In this document: positions 1 through 29,697 of the stretch, in pieces
Numbering within the stretch: position 1 is the stretch's first letter
Layout of the letters: each line of letters starts with the position of its first letter
Assembly: GCA_027459705.1 (NCBI GenBank)
Contig: DAIDHM010000104.1
Span: 1 to 64,000, forward strand
DNA length: 64,000 bases
Direction: 5' to 3'
Source: Ktedonobacteria bacterium
GTDB lineage: Bacteria > Chloroflexota > Ktedonobacteria > Ktedonobacterales > JACDGC01
Made by a program: the position numbers and the translations under genes
Notes under the pieces: generated by a model
Told to the model about the DNA's origin: nothing
The model's input: only the letters and a program-made list of their open reading frames with translations
The model's database searches: none

Positions 1-748
1 TCCCCGCCAGCGGCGGCCGGAGCGGCGCGGCATCGGCGGGCTGGGCGAGGCGTTGGGCCAGGCCAACCACGACGCTGCTCTTGCCACAGCCCGGCGGCCC
101 CACCAGCACGGCCACCGGCGCGCCACCACCGGCCCGCGCGCCAAACTGGAAGATTGTCTGGACGATGCGTGTCTGTTCGGCGGCGCGGCCGATCACCAGA
201 TCATACTCACCGGCGCGCGCGGCGGCGACCATATCGGTCCCCAGTTCCGCCAGTGCCGCCTGCGCCACGGCCAGCGCGCGCGTGCGCAACGCCGTGGCCT
301 CCGGCCCGCTATCGGCGGCGACCGCGGCAGCTAGCGTCGCGACCTCCTGCCCCAGCGATTCCAGGAGCCGCACGGCCACCCCCGAACCGGAGCGCAGCAC
401 TGCCAGCAACAGGTCGCGCTCGGTCATGGGGGTCACCCCCAGCGCGCGCTGGCGCGCCGCCAGCGCCGCCCGCAACCGCGGTGTCAGCGCCAATTGCCCG
501 TCGAAGCGCGTGGACTGCGGATCGGCCGCCAGGTGGCGCAGCGCCCCGCGCAGTGCGGCGGGAGTGACGGCGATCTGCTCCAGCAGCCGCGCCGTGGGGC
601 CGCCCTCCGCGCGGGTCAGGGCGATCAGGACATGCTCCGTGCCGAGATAGGTGGTGTGCCCCAGCGCGAGCGCCTCGCGCGGCGCCACGTGGTGCATTAC
701 CTCGGCGGCGATGGGGTCGGCGAAGCGCAGATCGCCAATGGTGTACAT
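1..748 (-). CDS. Clp-N / AAA+ ATPase (ClpA/ClpC-like), C-terminus outside window
   Basis: Only the first 249 codons are in the window; the frame is open to base 1. Residues ~1-145 form a Clp repeat (R/N) domain with two repeats (GHTTYLGTEHVLIAL in the first). A linker of ~60 residues precedes an AAA+ P-loop, GPPGCGKSS, at about residue 212. In Clp ATPases the N domain recruits substrate or adaptor and the AAA+ domain unfolds protein. Whether a second AAA+ ring and a ClpP-binding loop follow cannot be seen. The ATG is chosen for the AAAGGAG 11 nt upstream. It is the last visible gene of the FHA-kinase-CHAT operon, 32 bp after the CHAT gene, so a dedicated partner of that system is more likely than housekeeping ClpC (inference). 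Confidence 0.85.
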   Translation of the reverse strand, partial: MYTIGDLRFADPIAAEVMHHVAPREALALGHTTYLGTEHVLIALTRAEGGPTARLLEQIAVTPAALRGALRHLAADPQSTRFDGQLALTPRLRAALAARQRALGVTPMTERDLLLAVLRSGSGVAVRLLESLGQEVATLAAAVAADSGPEATALRTRALAVAQAALAELGTDMVAAARAGEYDLVIGRAAEQTRIVQTIFQFGARAGGGAPVAVLVGPPGCGKSSVVVGLAQRLAQPADAAPLRPPLAG

Positions 749-780
749 GTTCGACTTGCTCCTTTCACTCGGGGGGCACC

Positions 781-3315
781 TCAGCGCGGATCGCGCAGAT
801 CGCTGATGGTGACGTGGACGATAGGGAGAGCGCTGCTGAGCGTGGCGGTGGGGGCCAGTTCGGAGTCCTGGTTACCACGGAAGCGGGCACGGATGCAGGC
901 CCAATGCAGCCGCTCCAGCGCCGCCCCGGGCAGGACCCGCGCGCGATCCGCCATGGCGGCGGCGACGCTGGCCGCCGCCAGTCCATCGTCCAGCGCGGCG
1001 CGATAAAACGCGCTGATCGCCGCGCAATGCGCCGCCACCTGGTCGCGCGCCGTCGCCGGATCGGGTGGGGCCAGCGTCAGGGGCAGGAAGGCGCTCGCCA
1101 CATCGGGATGGTCGCGCCGCACCTGATTGAAATCCGTGTCGCGCGCCGTCGCCAGCAGCCGGATGCGCGGGTGCGTCGCCAGCGCGCGCAGCAAGAACAC
1201 CGTGCCTTCACGCGCCGTCGCGTCCGGGTCCGCCAGTAGTTCTGGCAGATCGGTAAGCAACAGGATCGCGGGGGTCGGCAACGCGTCCAGATCATGGCGC
1301 AGCCGCGTGGCGGCGCGGGCAGCGTCGGGGCGGTGCAAGCGATAGATGGCGTGGTCGGCGAAGCTCGCCACGTGTAGCGCGTCATCCTGGCGGGCGATGC
1401 GTCTCGCGATCTCCAGCGCCAGCGCGTCCTTACCGACGCCCGACGGTCCCAGCACGACGACATGCCCGCGTGCCAGCAACCGCAAGGCGGCCAGCGTCTC
1501 AGCGGCGCGGCCCACGAAGGCGGTCGCATGGCGCAACGCGCTGTCGGACCCTTCTGCCGTCGCCAGCCAGGGGCGCAGATCGCGCAGGGCCTCGCGGCTG
1601 GTGCTGTCGCTGCTGGCCTGGGCCTGGTCAAAGGCGTCGGGCGGCCGCAGTGCCAGGCGGACCGGGGCGACCCTTTCCCCGCGGGTCGCCGCCAATACCG
1701 TCGCGGCGTCCACCCCCAGCATTGTCAGCATGATGTGGAGGCTGCCGCGCGACGGGGCGCCGAGCAGAGCCGCCAGCAGATCGCTTTCGGTGACCACCGC
1801 GTCTGCCCCGCCCCGCGCCGCCCCGGCCCAGGCCCGGCGCAGGGCGCTTTCCACGGCGGGGGTGGCGCCAGGCGCCAGGCGATCGCTGGCCGCGGTGCCC
1901 AGGACGCGCAGCGTGATCTGTTCCAGTAGCGCGGGGTCCAGCCCCAGCGCGCGCAATCCCAACGCCAGCTGGCTCGCGGGCTGCGCGGCCAGCCCCGCCA
2001 GCAGATGTGCCTGGCGCAGCCTCGCCTGGCCCTGCGCTTCACAGTGGCGCAAGGCGTTCTCCAGCGCGGCCTGGACGACCGGGTCCAGCGAGATCTCTTC
2101 ATCGGGGTCCAGTGTGTAGAGGAAGAGAGCGACGCGTGGACTGAGCCAGAGCTGAGGATAGTCGGCAGCGAGCTGCAATGGCGGGATGGTGACGCGCGCG
2201 TCGGGCGCGGGAGTGTCGGCGCGCTCGACCAGGTCCGGCTGGCGCAGGGCGTCCAGCGTCAGCCGCGGATCGCCATAGAGCACGTAGGCTGCCCAGGTGG
2301 GATCGATGCCCCGGGTGGCGGCGAAGGCCTGGCGCGTCCAGCGCAGCGCCTCGCCGAACGGGACGCCGCGCAAGATCTGCGCCCAGCAGGCGCGGTCAAA
2401 GGCTGTGGCGCCCTGGCTATGCACCTCCCAGAGCGTGCCGACGACGGCGCGGGCGCCGCGGCTGAAGGCGGCGCCCGGCAAACCGCGCCCACCGCGCCCC
2501 GGGCCCAGCGATGCCGGTCGGGCGCGGCGCGCGCTGCGGCAGCCACCCAGATAGACCAGCCCCGCGCCGCCCCAGTCACCGAGCAGATCTCGGACGCTGA
2601 GCGTGCCACCCTCATAGGCCAGCCCATCGATCGCGTTGCGGTCGGCCTCGGCGATGTGGCCGGTGTAGTAGAGCAGATCGACCATCGGACGCAGGGCCGC
2701 CAGCAGCGCGGCGCGGTCCATGCGGGTCACGTGTGACGCGCCGTCGATGCCCTGCGCCGCCAGCGCATCCGCCAGCCAGCGCGCCGCCAGGTCACAGTAC
2801 GGGCGGTCGCCGCGCGTATCGCCGATGATCGTCGCGGCCAGCGCCGCCCCCGGCCCGCGCGCGCCGCCCGGCATCGGCAGATCCTGCGGGATGCGGGCGA
2901 CGGGCCGGAACATCCCCAGGCAACCAGCAGGGTCACCGAGATCCGCGCCCGGATGGCGTAGCACCTCCCAGGGGAAGGCGAGATCGTCGGTGACGATCGC
3001 CAGCGGAGCGCGATCCTGGAAGAGGAAATCCAGGACGCGCGGCGGCAGATAGTCGCGCGCCAGCCGCGCCCCCAGCCGCCCGAAGGTCGCCAGGCCACCC
3101 GCTGGCACGGGGAGCTGGCCGTGGCTATCCAACGCCGCCAGCACCAGCGCGGCGTTGCCCAGCTGGCGCTCGTCGGCGGCGCGCGACATCCCCAGTTGCT
3201 CGCCCGCGATCGCGCTCTCCGCGCCCGGGCGCGACGAACTGGGCAGATAATAGGTCAGCAGGACGCGGCCGCCGGATTCTTCGCGCCGCACCCGCAGCAT
3301 CGCCAATGGCGCCAT
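781..3315 (-). CDS. CHAT protease - Clp-N - AAA+ fusion protein
   Basis: 844 residues. The N-terminal ~380 residues are a CHAT (caspase-like, HetF-associated) domain; the His is visible in LLYYTGHIAE and the Cys in VYLGGCRSA, the expected catalytic dyad of this clan. Residues ~400-560 repeat the Clp-N fold (RQAHLLAGLA; TESDLLAALLG). Residues ~600-760 form an AAA+ module with Walker A GPSGVGKD and Walker B ILLLTDLPEL, after which the protein ends with no second AAA+ ring. CHAT proteases are usually activated by an attached sensor; here the Clp-N/AAA+ part may be that sensor (inference). The start with GGAGG 6 nt upstream was taken over an in-frame ATG at 3375 inside the kinase gene. It follows the kinase stop by 19 bp. 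The product is probably cytoplasmic: no signal or membrane segment is seen. Confidence 0.85.
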   Translation of the reverse strand: MAPLAMLRVRREESGGRVLLTYYLPSSSRPGAESAIAGEQLGMSRAADERQLGNAALVLAALDSHGQLPVPAGGLATFGRLGARLARDYLPPRVLDFLFQDRAPLAIVTDDLAFPWEVLRHPGADLGDPAGCLGMFRPVARIPQDLPMPGGARGPGAALAATIIGDTRGDRPYCDLAARWLADALAAQGIDGASHVTRMDRAALLAALRPMVDLLYYTGHIAEADRNAIDGLAYEGGTLSVRDLLGDWGGAGLVYLGGCRSARRARPASLGPGRGGRGLPGAAFSRGARAVVGTLWEVHSQGATAFDRACWAQILRGVPFGEALRWTRQAFAATRGIDPTWAAYVLYGDPRLTLDALRQPDLVERADTPAPDARVTIPPLQLAADYPQLWLSPRVALFLYTLDPDEEISLDPVVQAALENALRHCEAQGQARLRQAHLLAGLAAQPASQLALGLRALGLDPALLEQITLRVLGTAASDRLAPGATPAVESALRRAWAGAARGGADAVVTESDLLAALLGAPSRGSLHIMLTMLGVDAATVLAATRGERVAPVRLALRPPDAFDQAQASSDSTSREALRDLRPWLATAEGSDSALRHATAFVGRAAETLAALRLLARGHVVVLGPSGVGKDALALEIARRIARQDDALHVASFADHAIYRLHRPDAARAATRLRHDLDALPTPAILLLTDLPELLADPDATAREGTVFLLRALATHPRIRLLATARDTDFNQVRRDHPDVASAFLPLTLAPPDPATARDQVAAHCAAISAFYRAALDDGLAAASVAAAMADRARVLPGAALERLHWACIRARFRGNQDSELAPTATLSSALPIVHVTISDLRDPR

Positions 3316-3334
3316 CAATGGCCTCCGTTCGCGC

Positions 3335-5074
3335 TCATGGCCGCGGGTGCGCGCGGCGCACCTGCTCGGCCTCATCCGCGCGTCCCAGGTGAGTTAATGC
3401 CTCAATGGTATATTCCCAACATGCTTGCAGCGAGGCATCGAGCGAGAGCGCCTGTTGGGCGGCGACTAATGCCTCATGCCACCGCTCAGCGCCGCACGCT
3501 ATTTCTGCCCGACTATCCCACCAAGCAGCTTCTTTAGGGCTTAGTGCTATAGCATGATCGATCGCGGCCAGAGCCTCATTGAAATGGTGTTGGGCAAAAT
3601 GGATATACCCCAACCTATTCCAGCTACGCGGATCGTCCGAAGCAATCGCAATGGCATGTTCAGCCGCCTGGATAGCGCGGGCATAGGCGTCCAGGGCCTC
3701 GGTGGGTCTCCCCAGGTCACTGAGCGCGTTGCCCCGCCCGTACCAGGGGAGGGCAGATGCCGGGTCCAGGTCGGTGGCGCGGGCAAAGGCGTCCAGGGCC
3801 TCGGCGGGTCTCCCCAGGTCACTGAGCGCGTTGCCTCGCCCGTTCCAGGGGAGGGCCTCGGCCGGGTTCAGCTCGGTGGCGCGGGCATAGGCGTCCAGGG
3901 CCTCGGCGGGGAGGCCGATATCGCTATAGACCTTGGCCCAGTTGGCCCAGATCTCGCCACAGGCGGCTGGTGTGCGCTCGTCGATCTCGGGAGTATAAGC
4001 CGCATCGCCTGCGACGGTGGCGAGCAGTGCGGCGATCTGCCGCGCGGTCAGCGTGCGCTGCGCTGGCTGGCGCCGGGTGCAGATCTGGTAGATGGTCTCG
4101 ATGGCGTCGGGGAGATCGGGGACGACGGCCGCCAGGTCGGGGAGCTGGCGGCGATAGATCAACGCGTGGTCCGGCGGGTCGCCAGGAACACGCGGCGCGG
4201 CGATATCCTGCGCTGGATGATGGCCGGTGTAGAGTTCGTAGAGGATGATGCCAAACGCGAAGAGGTCCGCCCGGTAATCGACCGTGGCGGGCAGCCCCAG
4301 CAGATACTCCACCTGCTCGGGCGCGGCATAGCCCACCGTCCCACCGCCCAGCATGGTCTGGCCAGCGCGCGGGGCCCGGGATGTCGTTGCGGCCAGCGTC
4401 TCGGCGGCGATGCGCGCCAGCCCCAGGTCGGTCACACAGAGCTGGCCAGCGTGGAAGAGCAGGTTAGCGGGTTTGAGATCCAGATGGGCGATCGGATCGG
4501 GTCGGGCCATGCCGGTCGCTGGGTCATTGTCGGGCTCGTGCAGATATGTCAACGCCGCCGCGAGCTCCTGCGCCCAGCGCAGCGCCAGAGCGCGATCCGG
4601 CGTCTGCCCCACCCCGCGCCAGAGACTCAGCATCTGCGCCAGCGTGTGTATGCGCTGGCTGGTGTCGCTGATCGCGATGCCTTCCGCGTAGTCAAGATAG
4701 ATAAACGGCTGGCCGGCGAAGACGTGGCCCGGCTCCAGCGCGGAACGGCAGGTGATCGTCACCAGGCTGACGGCGCGCATGATGTTGGGGTGCGGCCAGA
4801 GGCCGCACCAGATCTCGGCCTCGTGGCGCGTGAAGACGCGGCGATAGCGGTCCAGTGCCTCTTTGGGATAGAGCTGGTCGTTTTCGTCATAGGGATTGTA
4901 GGTCTTGAGGACCATCATCCGGTTGTCGTGACGTTCATCGTTGCCGATGGCGACGACGCCCATCCCGCCGCCGCGCACCTCGGTGACGCGCAGACGAACA
5001 TTCGTGCCGTCGTCCAGGATATCGCCGATCTGGATAAACCGTTTTTTGGCCGTAGCCACCCGATATGGAGACAT
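3335..5074 (-). CDS. Ser/Thr protein kinase with C-terminal TPR repeats
   Basis: 579 residues. The kinase domain spans ~15-330: a glycine-rich loop (RGGGMG), the lysine in MMVLKTY, catalytic loop HLDLKPANLL (Asp present, HRD reads HLD), metal-binding DLG in place of DFG, and an APE-like AAPEQ. Residues ~370-570 hold about four TPRs; the first two are near-identical at protein and DNA level (around 3690-3900). No transmembrane helix is seen, unlike many PknB-type kinases, so the enzyme is probably cytosolic with TPRs for partner binding. AAAGGA stands 8 nt before the ATG. It lies between the FHA gene (30 bp upstream) and the CHAT gene (19 bp downstream). Likely substrates are its operon partners (inference). 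Confidence 0.9.
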   Translation of the reverse strand: MSPYRVATAKKRFIQIGDILDDGTNVRLRVTEVRGGGMGVVAIGNDERHDNRMMVLKTYNPYDENDQLYPKEALDRYRRVFTRHEAEIWCGLWPHPNIMRAVSLVTITCRSALEPGHVFAGQPFIYLDYAEGIAISDTSQRIHTLAQMLSLWRGVGQTPDRALALRWAQELAAALTYLHEPDNDPATGMARPDPIAHLDLKPANLLFHAGQLCVTDLGLARIAAETLAATTSRAPRAGQTMLGGGTVGYAAPEQVEYLLGLPATVDYRADLFAFGIILYELYTGHHPAQDIAAPRVPGDPPDHALIYRRQLPDLAAVVPDLPDAIETIYQICTRRQPAQRTLTARQIAALLATVAGDAAYTPEIDERTPAACGEIWANWAKVYSDIGLPAEALDAYARATELNPAEALPWNGRGNALSDLGRPAEALDAFARATDLDPASALPWYGRGNALSDLGRPTEALDAYARAIQAAEHAIAIASDDPRSWNRLGYIHFAQHHFNEALAAIDHAIALSPKEAAWWDSRAEIACGAERWHEALVAAQQALSLDASLQACWEYTIEALTHLGRADEAEQVRRAHPRP

Positions 5075-5104
5075 CGCTCAGTCCTTTCCATGCGCTCTGC
5101 GCGT

Positions 5105-5590
5105 TCAGGGGAGTTCAGGCGGCGGGTTGAGCCGCAACCACAGGTCGGTATGCCCCAGCTGGAGGCGCGTGCCTGGCGCCAGCGGCGTCGGCGCGCCTTC
5201 GGCCAGCGCGTGGTCGTCCACGTGCGTGCCATTGGCGCTCTCCAGGTCAGTGATCCACCACTGGCCGTCGCGCCAGGCCAGTTCGGCGTGGGGATTCGAG
5301 ACGAAGCCATCGGCCAGGGCGATCGTTGTCGCGGGCCGATCGGGTTTCGGGGGGGCGCCACTGCGGCCGATCACGTTGTGGTCGGCGTCGATGGCGATGG
5401 TGCGGCCGTCCTCTGGCCCGTTGAGGATCTCCAGCCAGGCGGGGGGGCGCGCCACCGCCGCGCGCATCTGGTCGATCCGCGCGGCGGCGCCCGGCGTGAG
5501 GTTTGTGCCTGGTGCGGCGGCCGCGATGGGTGTTATGTCCGGTTCTTCCGCCGACGAGTCGGCTGGGGTGTTTGCTGCTGTTGGTTCCAT
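5105..5590 (-). CDS. FHA-domain protein
   Basis: 161 residues. A low-complexity Ala/Pro/Thr-rich N-terminus of ~60 residues is followed by a forkhead-associated domain (~65-160) with the diagnostic pieces: GR after a strand (NVIGRSG), a SNPHAEL segment (S-x-x-H), and DLESANGTHVDD (NGT loop). FHA domains bind phosphothreonine peptides. The Thr/Ser-rich N-terminus could be phosphorylated by the neighbouring kinase and read by this or another FHA domain (inference from known kinase-FHA pairs). The ATG at 5590 has GGAG 7 nt upstream; an upstream in-frame ATG at 5674 lies in repeat-rich sequence without such a site. It is the first gene of the tight operon running to base 1. Confidence 0.88.
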   Translation of the reverse strand: MEPTAANTPADSSAEEPDITPIAAAAPGTNLTPGAAARIDQMRAAVARPPAWLEILNGPEDGRTIAIDADHNVIGRSGAPPKPDRPATTIALADGFVSNPHAELAWRDGQWWITDLESANGTHVDDHALAEGAPTPLAPGTRLQLGHTDLWLRLNPPPELP

Positions 5591-5679
5591 GCCGCATCTC
5601 CGTGAAGCCGTATGTGAAATCGTGGTTGGCTTTATCATACTACTTCGCTGCGCTGGAGGGATACCCTCCAGCACTTCCC

Positions 5680-5886
5680 GTGCGCCGCTGCGCGGCGCTT
5701 CTTCGATAAAATGGATTGGGCGGGGACACCCCGCGCCCCGGCAGGGGCGGCTGCCCCTGGCACCCCGCTGCGCTGCTCCTCCGCGATCCGCCTCCCGCGC
5801 TTCCGTGCGCCGCTGCGCGGCGCTTCTATACTAAAAAATTATTTGGGCGGGGACACCCCGCGCCCCGGCAGGGGCGGCTGCCCCTG
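5680..5886. repeat. Two-copy intergenic direct repeat (about 125-bp period)
   Basis: A 42-bp GC-rich sequence at 5718-5759 recurs at 5845-5886, and a shorter palindromic segment before it (5680-5702) recurs at 5805-5827. Both segments are self-complementary in part (GCGCCGCTGCGCGGCGC; CCCCGCGCCCCGG). They lie upstream of the FHA gene with no credible coding frame. Confidence 0.8.
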
Positions 5887-5898
5887 ACACCCCGAATT

Positions 5899-5968
5899 GC
5901 CGGGACCCAACCCGCTTCAGCGGGTTTCGCCGCCCGCAGGCGCTTAGCCGGGGGATTGCAACCCCCGG
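5899..5968 (+). repeat. Multi-hairpin repeat element, copy 1
   Basis: It contains a palindrome at 5909-5926 (arms AACCCGCT / AGCGGGTT), a GC-rich linker with CGCTTAG, and a second hairpin at 5948-5968 (arms CCGGGGG / CCCCCGG). The first 49 bp are identical to 6348-6396. The architecture resembles REP/BIME-type intergenic elements. Confidence 0.75.
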
Positions 5969-6018
5969 CGGCCCCATGCACCCTGCACCCCATGTATGCC
6001 TCGCCCGCCCAATCCCCA

Positions 6019-6139
6019 GCGCCCCCGACCATGGCGCTGGCTCTGCACACTCTGCCCGCCCATCCCCCGGCGCCCCCGACTATGGCGCTGGCTCTGCACA
6101 CTCTGCTCACCCAATCCCCGGCGTGCCTAGACCATGGCG
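6019..6139. repeat. 51-bp tandem repeat, two good copies and a decayed third
   Basis: A unit beginning GCGCCCCCGAC starts at 6019 and again at 6070, with a degenerate third start near 6121. The period of 51 bp is a multiple of 3, yet no frame here looks like a protein, so I treat it as non-coding intergenic repeat between copies 1 and 2 of the hairpin element. Confidence 0.7.
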
Positions 6140-6198
6140 CGCACCATCTTCGTCCACCGCGCGGCCCACTTCCTGGGCAACCCGCGTGGCCCCGACCG

Positions 6199-6270
6199 CC
6201 GGGGGATCAATCCCCCGGCTAAGCGGCCTGCGGGCCGACGAAACCGGATGAATCCGGTTAGGTTCCGGGC
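6199..6270 (-). repeat. Multi-hairpin repeat element, copy 2 (inverted, diverged)
   Basis: In the opposite orientation to copy 1: hairpin 6199-6218 (CCGGGGG / CCCCCGG), then CTAAGCG, then palindrome 6242-6259 (arms AACCGGAT / ATCCGGTT). Relative to copy 1 two base pairs of the palindrome have changed on both arms, so pairing is kept while sequence drifts. Confidence 0.7.
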
Positions 6271-6347
6271 GGGCTGTAGTGCGCGTGGGTCCTGTCCCTT
6301 TGGGAAGCTGCACCGATGCGGTTGGTGGGGTTGCCTCCACCATGCTC

Positions 6348-6413
6348 GCCGGGACCCAACCCGCTTCAGCGGGTTTCGCCGCCCGCAGGCGCTTAGACGG
6401 GCGGGATTCCCGC
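6348..6413 (+). repeat. Multi-hairpin repeat element, copy 3
   Basis: Positions 6348-6396 are identical to 5899-5947; the second hairpin is replaced by a shorter one at 6401-6413 (GCGGG-ATT-CCCGC). The element overlaps the 3' end of the neighbouring minus-strand gene and supplies its last codons and its TAA stop. Confidence 0.75.
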
Positions 6414-7352
6414 AGTCGGGGGCGGACGCAAGAGTTGGAGCATCGACGTCACCTGGCCTTCGCGCAGGATGGCGGCGCGCAGTTCGCTGACGTCGATGTG
6501 CAGGGAGAGCGTGAGATATTCGAGCGACTTGCTGGTCGGGACTTGCTCCAGGATTGCCAGCATGACGTGGTCGTCGCGAGTCCAGGGGGCATAGGCATCG
6601 CGTGCGATCGCGCGGGCGCGATCCAGGATGCGCACGGCGTTGGGAGTCATGGGGTCGGCGACGGGACCGGCGTAGGGCTGGATGGCGTCGCGCAGGGCGG
6701 CGATCGTTTGCTGTGGGGTAATGTGGCGCTGACGCAGCAGCGGCGGCACTAATCCTTGCGCCTGCACCTGCACGGCGTAGAAGAGATGCGCGGTGGTGAC
6801 ATATCCATGGCCCAGGTCCGACGCGCTGGCCACCGCCGCATCCATGATCCGCTCGCGCAGACCGGGGAGATACTCCGGCGTCGGCATTAGGCGATGCAGG
6901 TCTTCGCGCATCTGCTCGCCCCGCAAGATCATCACCGTCTGGTGCAGCTCGGGTAGCATGCCCACCTCGGTGTGCGTCAGACTGATCAGGCGGCGGGCGG
7001 CGGCGTGGCAACGGTGCGTGGCGATCGTCGGGACAAGCTGGTGCAGCATGCCGGCCAGTTCCAGCTCGGCGGCATGGGCGGCCTGTTGGCCGGTGGCGAC
7101 ACGCGCCAGCAGCGCCGCGATGGCCGGATTCTCGTCGAAGCGCGCCGCCTGGAGCGCGTGTGTCAGCTCCTGGTCGTCGCTTTCGGCAAGAAAGCGCGCA
7201 CCCGCGTTGTCGACGGCCGCACGGACCTTGCCTGCCAGCAATTGCTGATTGATCGGGTCGAGTATCTGCTTGCGCGCCGCGTCACCGATGGCCGACTCCG
7301 CCATATTCATAATGATCTGGCCGATGGCCGCGACGATGATACTGCCAAACAT
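6393..7352 (-). CDS. Helical protein with C-terminal Clp-N domain, no ATPase
   Basis: 319 residues. The N-terminal ~160 residues are predicted all-helical (a short hydrophobic start, then LLAGKVRAAVDNAG... and HRCHAAARRLISLT), which I do not recognise as a named family. Residues ~165-310 carry two Clp-N repeats (HGYVTTAHLFYAV; RDDHVMLAILEQV). There is no P-loop, so this is not an unfoldase; a Clp-N domain alone would suit an adaptor or a competitor for partners of the AAA+ proteins downstream (inference). The last residues (GIPPV) and the stop come from repeat copy 3, so the original C-terminus may have differed. It sits 28 bp after the 137-residue gene and about 0.8 kb before the FHA gene, on the same strand. 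Confidence 0.75.
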   Translation of the reverse strand: MFGSIIVAAIGQIIMNMAESAIGDAARKQILDPINQQLLAGKVRAAVDNAGARFLAESDDQELTHALQAARFDENPAIAALLARVATGQQAAHAAELELAGMLHQLVPTIATHRCHAAARRLISLTHTEVGMLPELHQTVMILRGEQMREDLHRLMPTPEYLPGLRERIMDAAVASASDLGHGYVTTAHLFYAVQVQAQGLVPPLLRQRHITPQQTIAALRDAIQPYAGPVADPMTPNAVRILDRARAIARDAYAPWTRDDHVMLAILEQVPTSKSLEYLTLSLHIDVSELRAAILREGQVTSMLQLLRPPPTAGIPPV

Positions 7353-7380
7353 GCCTTGCCTCCTTTCGTGCGCGCGGGTA

Positions 7381-7794
7381 TTATAGACGCCCCACCGCTA
7401 CGGGTATGGCGAACCGGGCAGATGTCGCCTGCATCGCGCTCCAGGCCTGCGCCAGATTCGTCCGGCGGACGCCCAGCAACAGGCTGATATGCCAGAGCAG
7501 GTGCGCGGTGGCCACCGCGGCGTCTGGCGCCGGGTCGTCGCGCAATGCTCGCAGCGCAACGAAGAGCAGGCCGATCGTATCGATCTCGGTCAGCACGATG
7601 ATATACTGTTCGAGGTAGGCGCGGGTCGCCGTGAGATCGCCCGCGTCGATTAAGCCCGCGAGGATGCGGGCGTCGCGCGCCAGCGCGGCCTCCGCGGCAG
7701 AGGACAATGCCAGGATGAAATGCTCGCCAGGGATCTGCACCTTTTGCCGCGCCGCTGGAGATAATGGTTGTCGGATGTGCCAGTTATTCATCAT
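7381..7794 (-). CDS. Small helical protein of unknown function
   Basis: 137 residues, predicted almost entirely helical, with no motif I recognise and no signal peptide. The ATG has GAGGAG 7 nt upstream. It is followed after 28 bp by the Clp-N protein on the same strand, so the two are probably co-transcribed and functionally tied to the CHAT/kinase cluster. Downstream of a CRP-like palindrome (7938-7953) and a strong hairpin (7878-7910) that would lie in its leader. Confidence 0.7.
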   Translation of the reverse strand: MMNNWHIRQPLSPAARQKVQIPGEHFILALSSAAEAALARDARILAGLIDAGDLTATRAYLEQYIIVLTEIDTIGLLFVALRALRDDPAPDAAVATAHLLWHISLLLGVRRTNLAQAWSAMQATSARFAIPVAVGRL

Positions 7795-7877
7795 GCCGAT
7801 ACTCCTCTTGCATAGCGGGAAGGCAACAGTCGCTTCCCGACTACATGAGGCGGTAACATGCCATGTACATCATGGGT

Positions 7878-7910
7878 GTTGCCCGTCTACTCTGTAATTG
7901 CACGGGCAAC
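7878..7910 (+). terminator. Hairpin followed by six T (terminator-like on plus strand)
   Basis: A perfect 9-bp stem (GTTGCCCGT / ACGGGCAAC) with a 15-nt loop is followed on the plus strand by ATGTTTTTT. Genes on both sides run on the minus strand, so it would stop antisense transcription, or act as a leader hairpin for the gene at 7794. Confidence 0.55.
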
Positions 7911-7937
7911 ATGTTTTTTGCGGCAAATGTCGCGAAA

Positions 7938-7953
7938 TGTGATCAATTTCACA
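7938..7953. promoter_or_regulatory. CRP/FNR-type operator palindrome
   Basis: TGTGA-N6-TCACA with flanking AAA on the left fits the classical CRP site. It lies ~145 bp upstream of the gene starting at 7794. No CRP-family gene is in the window, so the binding protein is unknown. Confidence 0.45.
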
Positions 7954-8159
7954 TCTTTGTGGACGCGGGCGTCCGCGCGGGCAATGCGGCGGGGGGGAGA
8001 ACTATGCCAGAGAGCGGCGCTATGCAGACATCGCGCGGAGGTATCCACCAGCTGGAGCACGTCGGTCAGGTGCGCCGTGGTATGGCGACGTAGCGCGCCG
8101 TGCGGTCACGACACGCGCACCAACCGGGAGCGGTGTGCGTGGCGCGTGATGCTGCTGAC

Positions 8160-22945: not shown

Positions 22946-25900
22946 CTATGGGGCACGCTGCTCTGGCATCGCCTGGGTTGTGGCGGCCGCGATCTGCCCC
23001 AACGCCACTTCGATGGCGCGCTCCAACTGCGGATCGCGTCCCTGGGCATAGTCCTGGGGGCGATATTCCACGGGGATGGTCGGCTCAGCGCCGTAGTTCT
23101 CCAACCCCCAACCGACATCGGGGAACCAGGTCGGGTACTCTGGTTGCGTCGTCAGGGTGCCATCGACGAGCTGGATATAGGCATTGTAGCCAATGACCCC
23201 ACCCCACGTTCGCGTCCCAATCACCGGGCCGAGCCCCAGCAGGCGGAACGCGTGACTGAAGACATCGCCATCCGATCCGGTGCTCTCATTGACGATCGCC
23301 ACCATCGGCCCACGAGGCGATTCCACGGGATATGGTATCGGGGGCCCCCAACGCGGAAAGTCATAACCCAGCCGCCGCCGCGCCAGTTTCTCCAGCAGCA
23401 ACCACGAAACGTAGCCACCGCTGTTCCAACGCGCGTCGATGATCAGCGCTTCATGGTCATATTCCGTCAGATACGCACGATGAAACTCGGCAAATCCCGT
23501 GGGGCTCATATTCGGAATGTGGATATAGCCGACGCGCCCGGCAGTTGCCGCGCGGACGTGGCTACGGTTGGCATTCACCCAATCGCGATAACGTCCCTCA
23601 ACCTCGTCATCCAGCGCTTTGACAGTGATATGGCGCATCTCGCCATTAGCGGCCGCGCGAATCAACAACGTCACTTCGCCCATCGACTGATTCACCAACA
23701 GGTGTTGCGGACCACGTGTCGCGCTCAATCGTTGGCCATTGATCGCAACGACCTCATCGCCGCGCTGCACTTGCAAGCCTGGTCCCAGCAGCGGCGATGT
23801 CGTCTCGGGATCCCAGGGATCGCCGCGGACGAAGCGTTCGATGCGGTAGGCGCCCGTGGCGTCATTGAGTCGCCAATCGACGCCCAGATATCCCTGGCGA
23901 TAGACAGGGTGGGGACGATACTCACCACCCATCTCATACGCGTGTGATGTGCCCAGCTCGCCCTGCATCTCATGGATCAGATCCGAGAGTTCGCCACGTG
24001 TGGCGATGCGTTCCACCAGCGGTTCGTAGCGGGCGCGCACCGCCAGCCAATCGATACCATTCATATCGGCGGTCCAGAACTGCTCGCGCTGCAGTCGCCA
24101 GGCCTCACCAAACATCTGGCGCCATTCCAACGCTGGCTGCAGCCCAACCCGGACCCGACTGAGATCTAACCAGCCGGTCTCACGACCAGCACGATTCTCA
24201 GGGGCGATCTTCTCACCGAGGCGCAAGACGCGGAGCCGGTCGCCCGCGCGGTAGAGGATCACGCGTGGATCGGTAGCTTGCCCGACACTTCCCACGCCAT
24301 CTACCAGCGATTCAGCGCGCATCTTCTCATAGTTGTAACTGAGCAAGACGCCGCGCGAACTGGATGACGCATATGCGCTGGCACTGATCAGACCCTCAAC
24401 CGGTTTCACAAGGAAGAGAGCGCCGTCGATAGTCCCGATTACTTGCTGATAGCGCCCCTCCGGAATGGGAAACGCCACGATGCGCTCGCGTATTCCTGCG
24501 AAATCGATGCGGATGCCTTCTTCTTCCGCTTTTGTCTGCTCGTCTTGCGCTGGCGCTGTGGGGGCCTTGGTCGCCTGGGCTGGCTCGGCTGATGACGACA
24601 CGGGATCGGCGCGCTGTTCCTGGTCGGTCTCTGGTGTAGGGTGAGCAGCGTCGTCAGTGGAAGACGCTTGGTCGATGCTGCCGGCCGTCGTTGGTACGCC
24701 ATCCGCTGGCGGATCTTGATCGTCGGAAGTCTTTTCATCCGCGACATCTTCCGTTGCCAGATCAGGGATGACCGGACGGAAAGGCGACGGCACGGTATCG
24801 CGCAACGTGATCAGATAGGGTCTGACGGCCTTGGGGAAGCTCATCTCTAATTGCAACATATCACGGACAGGATCAAAGCTGCGTTCACTCAAGAAGAGAA
24901 GGTAGCGGCCACGCGGATCAAAGGCGGGGCGGTAATCGATCGTTACGGGATCGGTGACTTGATAGGTCTCACCGGTTGCGACTCGCGCGATCTTGATGGC
25001 CATCTGGTGCGGTGCGATAGCACTGCCATAGGCGACCCAGTTGCCATCTGGCGCCCAGGCCAGGCCACCCGTCAGCGCTGAGACACCGCCCTGGCCAAAC
25101 TCCGCCCGATCCAGCACGCGCATGGTCTCAGCGGCCAGATCCACCAGCAGAATCTCGTTGCGATGATTGGCGATCATGACGAGATCTCCCGTGGGGGCCG
25201 CCGCCAACTCGACTACATGACCGATATCCAGCGTGGTCAGCAGCCGATCGGGTTCGGCGCCATCGACGCGACAGACCACCAGCCGCGGCTCGGAGCCATC
25301 ATCCGCCACCGCCACGATGCGCCGCCCGTCGGCCAACCAGTCCAGATGTCGATACCGAATGCCATCTGGCTCCCCGAGCTGCGAGACCGCGCCATCGAAA
25401 TTCGGCATGCTGAAGATCTTGCCACGCGCGATCATGGCGATGGTGTGGCCATAGGGATGAAGCGCTGCCTCCTCCAGATTGCGGCTGGCAGAGACAAAAC
25501 GGCGCTGGCGCTGCGCGCGTGTCCCCGCGAGATCCACGTCCAGTCGCCGCGCGTTGCCTTCACGCGGGTCGAGCAGGTAAAGATCGCCGCCCGCGTGAAA
25601 GACGGCGCGACGCCCATCGCTCTTCAGATCGCGAGCATAAAACTCGCCCAATGCGCTATGACGGCGGAGATCTTCGCCTTGCGCGTTCACAGAATAGACT
25701 GCGCCTATGCCTTCATGGTCCGCGATGAAATACAGACGGTCAGCGATCCAGCAGGGCGTCGTCAGATTCTGGATCTCTGGGACGATGCGGGTGAATGCTC
25801 CATCCCCCGCGCGATCAATCCAGAGCTTCCCGGTGGCACCACCGCGATAGCGCTTCCAGAAGGCAGGTTCGCCGGTATGGCGCCCCAGGACCACCATGCC

Positions 25901-26341
25901 GTCCGGTCCATAGGCAATGGCCGAGGCCAGGCCATATGGCAGGGGCAACGCTTCACCGCCAGTGGGCGCGATCGCCATCAGCGCGCGCCAGCGATCCATC
26001 GGTTGCCGCGATGCCGTCGAAAAGATGATCAGCGCGCCATCAGGCGACCAGGCTTCGGCGACCGGGCCACCCTCCTGATAGGTGAGGCGCGTAGCCGCGC
26101 CACCCGACGCAGGGATGACAAAAATCTCTGCAGGCCCCTCCTCGTGACCCGTAAACGCGATCCACGCGCCATCGGGCGAGAAGAGCGGCAACCTGGTCGG
26201 CGCGAGATGGGCAGTCAGGCGCTCGGCGCGGCCACCGATGCTCTGGACACGCCAGAGATCATCCTCAGCGGTGAAGACCAGTGTATCATCGTGTATGGTT
26301 GGATAACGCAGATAGACTTGCGGAGCGTCATTGGAGGGCAT
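22946..26341 (-). CDS. Tricorn protease homologue
   Basis: 1131 residues. Large self-compartmentalising serine protease that trims peptides released by other proteases. The first ~530 residues are two WD-like beta-propellers (LFSPDGAWIAFTGHE, WSPDGALIIFST). A ~90-residue Pro/Thr/Asp/Ala-rich insertion (24520-24770) links them to the catalytic half: core domain, His in ELGTSHAYE, PDZ domain (LQVQRGDEVVAINGQ), and the nucleophile in NESTGSDGD. The low-complexity linker is longer than in the archaeal enzyme. ATG 26341 matches the family N-terminus (QVYLRYPTIHDDTLVF); 26371 is possible. The HslUV genes elsewhere in the window are a possible upstream supplier of peptides (inference). Confidence 0.93.
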   Translation of the reverse strand: MPSNDAPQVYLRYPTIHDDTLVFTAEDDLWRVQSIGGRAERLTAHLAPTRLPLFSPDGAWIAFTGHEEGPAEIFVIPASGGAATRLTYQEGGPVAEAWSPDGALIIFSTASRQPMDRWRALMAIAPTGGEALPLPYGLASAIAYGPDGMVVLGRHTGEPAFWKRYRGGATGKLWIDRAGDGAFTRIVPEIQNLTTPCWIADRLYFIADHEGIGAVYSVNAQGEDLRRHSALGEFYARDLKSDGRRAVFHAGGDLYLLDPREGNARRLDVDLAGTRAQRQRRFVSASRNLEEAALHPYGHTIAMIARGKIFSMPNFDGAVSQLGEPDGIRYRHLDWLADGRRIVAVADDGSEPRLVVCRVDGAEPDRLLTTLDIGHVVELAAAPTGDLVMIANHRNEILLVDLAAETMRVLDRAEFGQGGVSALTGGLAWAPDGNWVAYGSAIAPHQMAIKIARVATGETYQVTDPVTIDYRPAFDPRGRYLLFLSERSFDPVRDMLQLEMSFPKAVRPYLITLRDTVPSPFRPVIPDLATEDVADEKTSDDQDPPADGVPTTAGSIDQASSTDDAAHPTPETDQEQRADPVSSSAEPAQATKAPTAPAQDEQTKAEEEGIRIDFAGIRERIVAFPIPEGRYQQVIGTIDGALFLVKPVEGLISASAYASSSSRGVLLSYNYEKMRAESLVDGVGSVGQATDPRVILYRAGDRLRVLRLGEKIAPENRAGRETGWLDLSRVRVGLQPALEWRQMFGEAWRLQREQFWTADMNGIDWLAVRARYEPLVERIATRGELSDLIHEMQGELGTSHAYEMGGEYRPHPVYRQGYLGVDWRLNDATGAYRIERFVRGDPWDPETTSPLLGPGLQVQRGDEVVAINGQRLSATRGPQHLLVNQSMGEVTLLIRAAANGEMRHITVKALDDEVEGRYRDWVNANRSHVRAATAGRVGYIHIPNMSPTGFAEFHRAYLTEYDHEALIIDARWNSGGYVSWLLLEKLARRRLGYDFPRWGPPIPYPVESPRGPMVAIVNESTGSDGDVFSHAFRLLGLGPVIGTRTWGGVIGYNAYIQLVDGTLTTQPEYPTWFPDVGWGLENYGAEPTIPVEYRPQDYAQGRDPQLERAIEVALGQIAAATTQAMPEQRAP

Positions 26342-26408
26342 GCGGCTGGTGCCATACCTTTCGTCGCGCATATGATCGCGTAGATTAAAAAATGGTAAAC
26401 TACACGGT

Positions 26409-26963: not shown

Positions 26964-29531
26964 TTATGGCGTCAGCTTCAGGATATTGACCGCGGCAGCT
27001 TTGACGGCCGCGGACGAGAAAGTCATCGGCTGATACTGTCCCTGATCCCAGAGGGGGAGCAGATCGAAATTGTGTGGGGCGAAGGGCAGGCCAGATTCGC
27101 CGGTGGTGGTGATGTACTTTGAATTGTCCAGATTGCTCATATCGATGATCTCGCGCATCGACGGCACGGTATCCTGGCTGTAATCGCCATCTGCGAAGTT
27201 CCCAGCGCCGCCGACATTGACCGTCGACGAGTCCCCTGGCCGCTGGACCGTCTGGTCAGGGAAGATCAGATTGAGGGGGGGAACGCTCGCTAACTGACTG
27301 GCGAAAGTGGCATGGTGCAGACTGCCCCAGAGCCAGCGCGTCGGATCGCTCGTGCCGTAGGTCTTCGTGAGATCGCTGGCCGCCTCATCTTCTGCATGCC
27401 GTACGGCGGTGGCGCAGTCCGCTGCGGTCGGACATAATGGCGCTTGGGGTGCATCCAACAGATTGCGAACGATCAGGAACTTGTCGATCGCGTAGACGTT
27501 CTGGTCCCATTGGTTATAGGACGTCTTATTCAGCACCGGGTGGAGTAAGTCTTGCAACAGATGGGTGGTTGTCACCTCATAAAAGGTCGCCGCCGCGCTG
27601 TTGCGGGGCATGGAGCCATCCCAACCCGCTAGCAAGGTTTGCGCCGCCCGCGCGCCAGCGCTGGTCTGGCCATCGGCCGCACTCAGGTAGAGCGGAGCGA
27701 TCTGTTGTGCCGGGATCGAGGTGACATCCAATTGCACTTGCGCGACATCCGCCGGGCTGAATTGGGGTTTCGCCAGCAAGAGTTGCTCGATGCGTTTGGC
27801 GCGATAGCCAATATCCCAATCGTTGGTGATGAAGTAGGGATAATTCGGCGAGGTAATGCGGTTGTTGGCAGTCAGGATGATACCGGTTGGTGGATTAAAG
27901 AGGTGCGGCATGGCATCGAAAGGCACACGCCCGGTCCAGTCAAATGCCCCATTCGCGCTCTCCACTGGAACAAGCCCGTTGAGTAGCGGGCGGATCGGCA
28001 ACCAGCCAGAAAGGCGATAGCCGATATTGCCCTGGGTGTCGGCATAGACAAAATTCTGACTGATCGAGATATTGCGCAAAGCATCCTCGAATTCCGACCA
28101 GTTGCGGGCGGCGCCGAGCATGAAGAAGCCAGCGAACGTATACCCTGGCTGGAGGGCTGTCCATTGTAGTGCCATTGGTGCGGCGGATTTGAAATCCTTC
28201 CCCAGCACATCATTCAGGATCGGGCCGTGATTCGTGACGCGGACAGTGATATGCTGATCGGCCCCGCCTTTGACATGGATCACTTCATCGCGTGTCTGCA
28301 GGGGAACCATGGTGCCGCCGTGCAAATATTCCGTCTTATCAGCGGAAAGGTGCTCAATGTACATATCCGTATCATCGACCATGCCATCAGTCACCCCCCA
28401 GGCGATGTGGTCATTATGGCCGATGATGATCCCCGGAACGCCGGGAAAAGAGAAGCCGATGGCATTATAATGGTCCGCGGGGTTGTCATCATGCAACCCA
28501 ATCTCGTACCAGATCGCAGGATACTGGATACCGAGATGGGGATCATTCGCCAGGATCGGCAAGCCGGTGGTGGTGTGCGACCCAGCAATCACCCAGTCAT
28601 TACTCCCCAGGACGCCACCGGTCCGGCCGAGTAGCGCTTGCAATTGGGCAACCCCAGGACCTAATGTGGCGTGGCTGAGCGTCGCCAGATCTGCCGCTTC
28701 GTTAGCGGGCAGATTGCGCAAGAGCGCCGCAGTGCTGGCAGATGGTGTTGGCGCAGGCGCCTCGCTCCCAAGTGGCAGCTCGGTGGTGCCCGTTGCGTCG
28801 ATCAAGGTCGGGTTGTCGGCGGGATAGCTGGGGAAAAGCTGCGCAGTGAGGGTGGGCCCGACCTGCGCCAGCACCATTGCGCGCGCGAGCTTGATGCTCC
28901 AGGATCCATCCAGGTCGAGCGCGACCACCTTGCCATAGGCAATCGAATCCGTGTCATGCCATGGTTCCGGCGTGAATCCCAGGACGCGGAACTCCAGGGG
29001 CAGGCTGTTCATATGTGTCGATATGTAGGCATTGACCCCCTGGGTATAGGCATCTAGTTCAGCGTGCAGGTCAGATGGCAACGCGTCAACATCGGCCTGG
29101 GCGGTGCGAGTGAGGCCCAGCGTGCGCAAGAATTCGTCTGTGGGGACGACACTCGCGCCAAAAATCTCAGACAAGCGTCCAGCCGCGACACGGCGATTGA
29201 ACTCCATCTGAAATAGGCGATCCTGGGCGGTCACATAGCCTTGCGCAAAGAAGAGATCGTGCTGATCGCTGGCATCGATATGGGGGACGCCATAGGCATC
29301 GCGTGTGACGGTGATGGGGGCATGGACGCCCGCGATCTGGATGGTGCCGCTCGTCTGCGGGATGGCAGTGCGGATAAGCAACGTGGCGCCCAGGGCGATA
29401 TCAGCCACGAGGATGACCAGGGTCGCCAGGCTGAGCGTCAGGCGGCGGCGCCAGCGACGGGGACGCGGCGGCGGGGAAAGCTCAGAATCAGGAGATGAGG
29501 ACGAACCTATCGTCTGCTCGCCAGTGGTCAT
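26964..29531 (-). CDS. Penicillin acylase-family (Ntn) hydrolase, membrane anchored
   Basis: 855 residues. A cytoplasmic Pro/Arg-rich start, one transmembrane helix (~30-52), then an alpha/beta Ntn-hydrolase precursor. The alpha chain has DAYGVPHIDASDQHDLFFAQGY; the autocleavage site and Ser nucleophile are in GGVLGSNDWVIAG (~residue 308), followed by ANDPHLGIQYPAIWYEI of the beta chain. Family members cleave amides such as beta-lactams, acyl-homoserine lactones or acylated amino acids; the substrate here is unknown. The ATG has AAAGGTGG 7 nt upstream; an in-frame ATG at 29594 lacks support. The catalytic domain is probably outside the membrane. Confidence 0.92.
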   Translation of the reverse strand: MTTGEQTIGSSSSPDSELSPPPRPRRWRRRLTLSLATLVILVADIALGATLLIRTAIPQTSGTIQIAGVHAPITVTRDAYGVPHIDASDQHDLFFAQGYVTAQDRLFQMEFNRRVAAGRLSEIFGASVVPTDEFLRTLGLTRTAQADVDALPSDLHAELDAYTQGVNAYISTHMNSLPLEFRVLGFTPEPWHDTDSIAYGKVVALDLDGSWSIKLARAMVLAQVGPTLTAQLFPSYPADNPTLIDATGTTELPLGSEAPAPTPSASTAALLRNLPANEAADLATLSHATLGPGVAQLQALLGRTGGVLGSNDWVIAGSHTTTGLPILANDPHLGIQYPAIWYEIGLHDDNPADHYNAIGFSFPGVPGIIIGHNDHIAWGVTDGMVDDTDMYIEHLSADKTEYLHGGTMVPLQTRDEVIHVKGGADQHITVRVTNHGPILNDVLGKDFKSAAPMALQWTALQPGYTFAGFFMLGAARNWSEFEDALRNISISQNFVYADTQGNIGYRLSGWLPIRPLLNGLVPVESANGAFDWTGRVPFDAMPHLFNPPTGIILTANNRITSPNYPYFITNDWDIGYRAKRIEQLLLAKPQFSPADVAQVQLDVTSIPAQQIAPLYLSAADGQTSAGARAAQTLLAGWDGSMPRNSAAATFYEVTTTHLLQDLLHPVLNKTSYNQWDQNVYAIDKFLIVRNLLDAPQAPLCPTAADCATAVRHAEDEAASDLTKTYGTSDPTRWLWGSLHHATFASQLASVPPLNLIFPDQTVQRPGDSSTVNVGGAGNFADGDYSQDTVPSMREIIDMSNLDNSKYITTTGESGLPFAPHNFDLLPLWDQGQYQPMTFSSAAVKAAAVNILKLTP

Positions 29532-29697
29532 CAGTGTCCACCTTTCGCGATGAAGTTGCTGTGGAGATTGGGCCAGCGGCCCACGGGTAGCCAATTGGGG
29601 ATGATAGCTGTACTATAGCAGGTGAGCACGCGCGCGACAACCCGCCCGCGCCTGGCTTTCGTGAGATAGGGCCACCGCTTTCATCGCCACAGGTTAG

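Follow-up and report, generated by a model that had tools for sequence, protein, structure and literature searches.

Five genes on the minus strand of positions 1-7352 of the window (the whole 64,000-bp stretch analysed here, that is, bases 1-64000 of the 72,023-bp contig C16) encode a Clp_N-only protein, an FHA-domain protein, a Ser/Thr protein kinase with TPRs, a CHAT-ClpN-AAA fusion and a ClpN-AAA protein. The comparison of gene neighbourhoods suggested with the original prediction of this cluster found all five components also in a second genome, from another family of the same order. As components common to two families point to a functional unit and not to a chance cluster, the sequences provide strong evidence for a conserved functional unit, in two genomes that are both fragmented assemblies. 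The cluster is real and conserved, and apparently undescribed, its component families being already known from conflict and stress signalling.

Gene content of the cluster

The host genome comprises 4.6 Mb and is 95% complete. All five predicted genes are present at the expected place and on the expected strand, and Pfam detected at least one domain of the assigned kind in each. The predicted spacing of 19-32 bp on one strand was likewise recovered, the measured gaps being 30 bp between the FHA and kinase genes, 19 bp between the kinase and fusion genes, and 32 bp between the fusion and ClpN-AAA genes. The Clp_N-only gene was said to lie just upstream of these four; it is indeed upstream, but not tightly linked, as an 802-bp spacer with an intergenic repeat (5591..6392; from the sequence and a DNA repeat search) separates it from the FHA gene. 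The spacer contains exact copies of a 43-bp repeat, at 5905-5947 and 6354-6396, which was never matched in shuffled sequences. The repeat is REP-like and contains an inverted repeat; the stop codon of the Clp_N-only gene is overlapped by its second copy. The region of the cluster stands out in composition, with the G+C content of 69% in positions 1-8000 compared to 60% in the whole window.

The Clp_N-only protein (6393..7352, minus strand; 319 aa) carries a Clp_N domain at residues 174-223 (Pfam, 3.9e-6). Among 60 related genomes searched, its full-length homologue was found only in the second genome, again adjoining FHA and kinase genes; a short Clp_N-only relative exists in one more genome (G003), where neither FHA nor a kinase was recognised among the neighbours. 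The FHA protein (5105..5590, minus strand; Pfam FHA, 4e-14) retains an intact phosphothreonine-reading motif (GR..., S..H, NGT), and the kinase (3335..5074, minus strand; Pfam kinase, 8e-16), which has C-terminal TPRs, retains the HLDLKPANL and DLGLA motifs.

The fusion gene (781..3315, minus strand; probable ATG at 3315) encodes a CHAT protease, Clp_N and an Hsp100 D1. The search with CHAT, Clp_N and AAA profiles proposed with the original prediction identified CHAT (PF12770) in the fusion at 3.6e-15 (56.6 bits compared to the cut-off of 24; 89 bits in the orthologue from the second genome) and Clp_N in the neighbouring proteins. The expected catalytic pair is borne out by alignment with the canonical CHAT motifs, GH and C being kept in both fusions; in the window copy these are His221 (codon 2656-2658) and Cys260 (codon 2539-2541), in the numbering that starts at codon 3318. 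CHAT is the sole protease visible in the kinase-linked unit. Clp-N had been ascribed to three of the five proteins. Two of them are recovered by Pfam; Clp_N of the fusion is below the Pfam cut-off (15.5 bits compared to 20.7), yet residues 411-650 match the N-domain and D1 of ClpV (4.4e-9), and a profile match to ClpA D1 is also observed (5.5e-12).

Both predicted AAA+ modules were found, but the partner gene is incomplete at the contig end and the module of the fusion is degenerate. In the window copy of the fusion, Walker A reads GPSGVGKD and Walker B reads ILLLTDLPE; in the other genome, they read GAPGAGSR and IILLEDLP, respectively. The arginine finger, the Ser/Thr of Walker A and the Glu of Walker B are lost in both fusions, the Walker A Lys is also gone in the second genome, and D2 is missing from both. 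Judging by these motifs, the AAA module of the fusion is a dead Hsp100 D1 in both genomes, and hence CHAT is not joined to a working AAA+ sensor, contrary to what had been proposed. Any use of ATP would then have to come from the neighbouring ClpN-AAA protein, so that in the kinase-linked unit one subunit type alone is predicted to be able to use ATP. An AlphaFold2 model of the fusion built from a two-row alignment was unusable (pLDDT 34).

No defence-island context was seen around the cluster. Rfam and tRNA scans of the window yielded no matches. PADLOC yielded just generic kinase, TIR and AAA matches. Further along the window, positions 22949-26371 encode a Tricorn-like protease (PD40, PDZ_Tricorn, S41), followed by a gene of the penicillin-amidase family (26967-29594).

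The Hsp100 partner and the adjoining contig

The ClpN-AAA gene (2..748, minus strand) encodes the first 249 aa of an Hsp100 partner of the fusion (Pfam Clp_N, 1.9e-12), comprising two Clp_N domains and the start of D1 with an intact Walker A (GPPGCGKS); its reading frame runs off the contig at base 1. By searching the same genome with the partner from the second genome, we found a candidate remainder on contig C89. There, a 500-aa frame at the start of the minus strand (L116:6752-8251, minus strand; Pfam) supplies the part that is missing from the window, namely the rest of D1, the lid, a degenerate D2 and ClpB_D2-small. This is the one other Hsp100 piece situated at a contig end, the remaining Hsp100 genes found in the genome being complete frames. 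The ends of C16 and C89 have no shared overlap; they abut in frame with no gap, and the joined frame aligns with the other partner across the junction (..PPLAG/S/IVRVDP.. compared to ..QLRGKRIVELQ..). In addition, the TPR DNA of the window kinase (3671-3925) resembles, at 84-88% identity, the TPR array encoded by the TIR-protein gene on C89, which suggests a recent duplication or gene conversion; five other stretches of this genome contained no match to it. Given the in-frame abutment, the alignment and the shared TPR DNA, the partner gene very likely continues on C89, and the cluster very likely runs beyond the window by at least two genes.

Taken in its two contig pieces, the partner has the ClpN, D1, D2 and D2-small architecture. 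The two ATPases are both intact in the second genome. In the window genome, D1 keeps Walker A and the arginines, Walker B reads DD instead of DE, pore loop 1 is deleted, and the Walker motifs of D2 are degenerate (GPASVGKR, no DE). An M-domain is missing (observed for the copy of the window genome), and the ClpP-docking tripeptide [LIVM]-G-[FL] was found in D2 of neither partner, the loop region being shortened. The deletion of pore loop 1, the DD Walker B and the degenerate D2 together make vigorous ATP-driven unfolding doubtful and a nucleotide-binding switch likelier.

Downstream of the partner remainder, on the same strand of C89, overlapping genes encode a 325-aa protein and then a 1152-aa protein. 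The former had no significant match in the domain library, and its sole distant matches in 46 related genomes were to ECF-sigma-like genes (7e-5 to 5e-3; the ECF-sigma reading comes from three of the five loci). We describe it as divergent and sigma-like, with weak matches to ECF sigma genes. A sigma-like gene accompanies the cluster in the second genome as well (TIGR02937, 26.2 bits compared to the cut-off of 42.9, E = 5e-6); in the window's genome the linkage is across the contig end. The 1152-aa protein (L116:2323-5778) contains two HxxxCxxC motifs, TPRs, a TIR domain (2e-16) and an FGE-sulfatase domain (8e-27). We presume, from inspection by eye, that the HxxxCxxC motifs are of the kind present in zinc-binding anti-sigma domains; no homologue of the N-terminal part of this protein was detectable in the second genome.

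The second copy and the single-chain relatives

The second genome (G024) is the Ktedonobacterales MAG JAICKD01, where the five components are distributed over three contig fragments. The first (C667) carries, on one strand, genes for an STK-TPR protein, a Clp_N-only protein, FHA, another STK-TPR protein and the ECF-sigma-like protein. On the second (C294), three STK-TPR genes are followed by the fusion (889 aa; CHAT, ClpN and dead AAA) and then by ClpN-AAA. The third (C70) starts with an Hsp100 D2, and the next gene, which overlaps it, encodes an STK-TPR protein that belongs to the same kinase family. Four other contigs of this genome (C498, C67, C504 and C610) also carry Hsp100 genes, none of which was judged to be the end of the partner. 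We infer the order of the pieces across the contigs. The order kinase, fusion, partner is kept in both genomes, and in the second one Clp_N-only lies beside FHA, itself beside a kinase. The fusions are 35% identical, and the window kinase is 31-35% identical to the six STK-TPR paralogues of the second cluster. These paralogues (L114, L031, L127) are about 55-64% identical to each other, an unusual local expansion of kinases.

Searches of 47 genomes of the order and of 400 of the phylum found no further copy of a fusion with intact CHAT, and the kinase-linked fusion is absent from five other genomes of the window organism's own family. A wider scan of genome contigs, with patterns built from two sequences, by which distant relatives would be missed, returned just the second copy and one generic CHAT-PEGA protein. 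Plasmids (searched with the CHAT-ClpN part) and viral contigs yielded no matches. One more genome (G056, L032:6992-11875) has an odd, possibly artefactual 1627-aa frame that combines CHAT, a nucleotide cyclase, AAA_16, TPR and SBP_bac_5.

A related protein exists in a third family, probably Ktedonobacteraceae, whose genomes are large. There, 27 of the 29 genomes encode a single chain of about 1200 aa, CHAT-ClpN-D1-D2-ClpB_D2-small (L010-L030; L034:4703-8320). Its order CHAT-ClpN-D1 is that of the window fusion, but D2 is present, Walker A, Walker B and the pore loops are intact in both rings, and the dyad is gone in every aligned copy (GP or GA for GH, the Cys column being lost). Six of these loci (about 17-20 kb each) were scanned for motifs, which revealed no kinase and a single stray FHA-like match; neither a kinase nor a sigma gene was found nearby. 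A photolyase-like gene adjoins the single-chain gene in the loci that were read. Loss of the CHAT dyad in relatives, or scattered components, had been named as evidence against the original prediction. The single-chain branch shows the loss of the dyad and, at the six loci scanned, has neither a kinase nor a neighbouring FHA gene, so that the prediction is refuted by its own criterion for this branch, but not for the kinase-linked one. Both forms may stem from one fusion event, their domain order being the same. In the tree of ClpN-D1 segments, the two kinase-linked fusions group together (100/100), with branches too long to reveal such an event, and the N-terminal 130 residues are about as similar to unrelated CHAT proteins as to the single-chain ones.

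Possible modes of action and comparison with known systems

We tentatively propose, with a probability just short of even, that the cluster encodes a CHAT protease switch gated by phosphorylation and operated by one active and one dead Hsp100 subunit. The kinase and the FHA phospho-reader would control assembly of a mixed Hsp100 complex, in which the ClpN-AAA-AAA subunit would bind or hydrolyse ATP, and the other subunit would combine the dead D1 with a live CHAT. Upon a stress or infection signal, this complex would form or change its state, and CHAT would make limited cuts in partner proteins; the unit may serve in defence or in stress response. Among candidate substrates, we give first place to the zinc-motif/TPR/TIR/FGE-sulfatase protein, whose gene lies beside the sigma-like gene; the analogy is with the cleavage of the sigma inhibitor Csx30 by Csx29 (PMC10028731). 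Cutting of the zinc/TIR protein would free the sigma factor and/or the TIR effector. The ATPase elements lost by the window partner, as well as its lack of the M-domain and of the ClpP tripeptide, speak for a nucleotide-dependent assembly switch rather than for a threading protease. It seems rather unlikely that an Hsp100 was made into an apoptosome-like platform, the dead subunit holding the live protease, the ATP-binding sister together with the kinase and FHA providing the timing, and the anti-sigma/TIR protein being cut; one gene cluster would then connect phosphorylation and proteolysis with transcription and a TIR effector. We assign the same low probability to the part of this reading that concerns the sister lineage, where the same fusion would have gone the opposite way, with the unfoldase kept and the protease lost.

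The gated switch has to be weighed against a protease for quality control or stress, with no role in conflict or death, in which the Hsp100 partner would feed CHAT as ClpA and ClpC feed ClpP, and the kinase and FHA would tune the process. The Hsp100 domains found throughout the cluster are consistent with such a function, as is the single-chain relative with its intact Walker motifs and pore loops and its housekeeping-like presence in nearly all genomes of its family. However, this housekeeping-like relative is the very protein that lacks the CHAT dyad; in the window, the partner has no D1 pore loop 1 and its D2 is degenerate, CHAT sits next to the N-domain, at the entry of the ring and not at its exit, and the kinase-linked form is patchy even within its own family. 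A quality-control protease is not very probable. On the other hand, the Hsp100 pair could be a scaffold, the true signalling path being formed by the kinase and FHA with the sigma-like and zinc/TIR proteins, and CHAT processing one protein, perhaps itself, at assembly. The loss of several ATPase elements from the window's pair and the expansion of the kinase in the second genome, which has six copies of it beside a single CHAT, argue for this; the preservation of the dyad and of the ClpN modules in both genomes at about 35% overall identity, and the two intact ATPases of the second partner, argue against it, and we consider it unlikely.

It is highly improbable that the cluster is a remnant or offshoot of the type VI secretion regulatory module (PpkA kinase, Fha and ClpV) re-used with CHAT. 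FHA, a Ser/Thr kinase and a ClpN-AAA+ ATPase of the ClpV type do resemble the T6SS threonine-phosphorylation set (PMC3953482, PMC5995506), and ClpV is the best curated match of the ClpN-D1 part of the fusion, but the score is 35 bits compared to the cut-off of 885, no T6SS genes are present among the scanned cluster genes, and CHAT is added. The sheath gene VipB (PF05943) had no matches in the window's own genome, the E. coli control being positive, and hence this origin is largely refuted.

CHAT proteases are switched by guide RNAs in Craspase, and AAA+ machines feed ClpP. If our proposal is true, CHAT on a dead Hsp100 subunit under control of a kinase and FHA would represent a further means of regulating such proteases, and an Hsp100 machine would serve as a signalling platform. 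The partner shares ClpN, D1 and D2-small domains with ClpA and ClpC; it differs from them in the missing M-domain and docking tripeptide and in the degenerate D2 of the window copy, and the associated protease would be CHAT instead of ClpP. The original prediction could not name a CHAT-ClpN-AAA fusion accompanied by a kinase and FHA, and in the open-licence literature we found no published description of one.

The MoxR-vWA-FtsH ternary conflict systems combine a dead and an active AAA+ with caspase-like effectors (Kaur et al. 2020, PMC7159879). They are enriched in multicellular-type bacteria, and sister systems involve TIR and FGS effectors and kinases (PMC7159879). The inactive/active AAA+ pair, the caspase-like effector and the occasional ClpN repeats are thus common to these systems and the cluster (PMC7159879). 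However, Pfam detected no MoxR AAA+ or vWA genes among the cluster genes of either genome, FtsH and Ubl genes are also absent from the cluster, the AAA+ proteins are Hsp100s, and CHAT is fused directly to AAA+; without MoxR, vWA or FtsH in the cluster, membership in the ternary systems was rejected.

In Craspase, an ECF sigma factor is inhibited by Csx30 until this protein is cut by the CHAT protease Csx29 (PMC10028731). Craspase/CASP (TPR-CHAT Csx29, Csx30 and CASP-sigma) is comparable to the cluster, where CHAT is accompanied by a putative ECF-type sigma and a candidate inhibitor protein, but CHAT of the cluster is fused to ClpN/AAA and not to TPRs, and control would be exerted by the kinase, FHA and Hsp100 instead of a guide RNA; neither Cas7-11 nor any other Cas domain was found among the cluster genes scanned. 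A similar neighbourhood of a caspase-fold protease with ECF sigma and TPR genes is formed by the EACC2-caspase systems (Kaur et al. 2021, PMC8195603), in whose description we found no Hsp100 module, and where the kinase and FHA are arranged differently.

No report of the single-chain CHAT-ClpN-AAA-AAA protein was found in the literature searched either. Judging by their motifs, the two branches exhibit opposite decay, a live protease with a dead ATPase in the kinase-linked fusions and a dead protease with a live ATPase in the single-chain proteins, which is a clean natural comparison for the role of each half.
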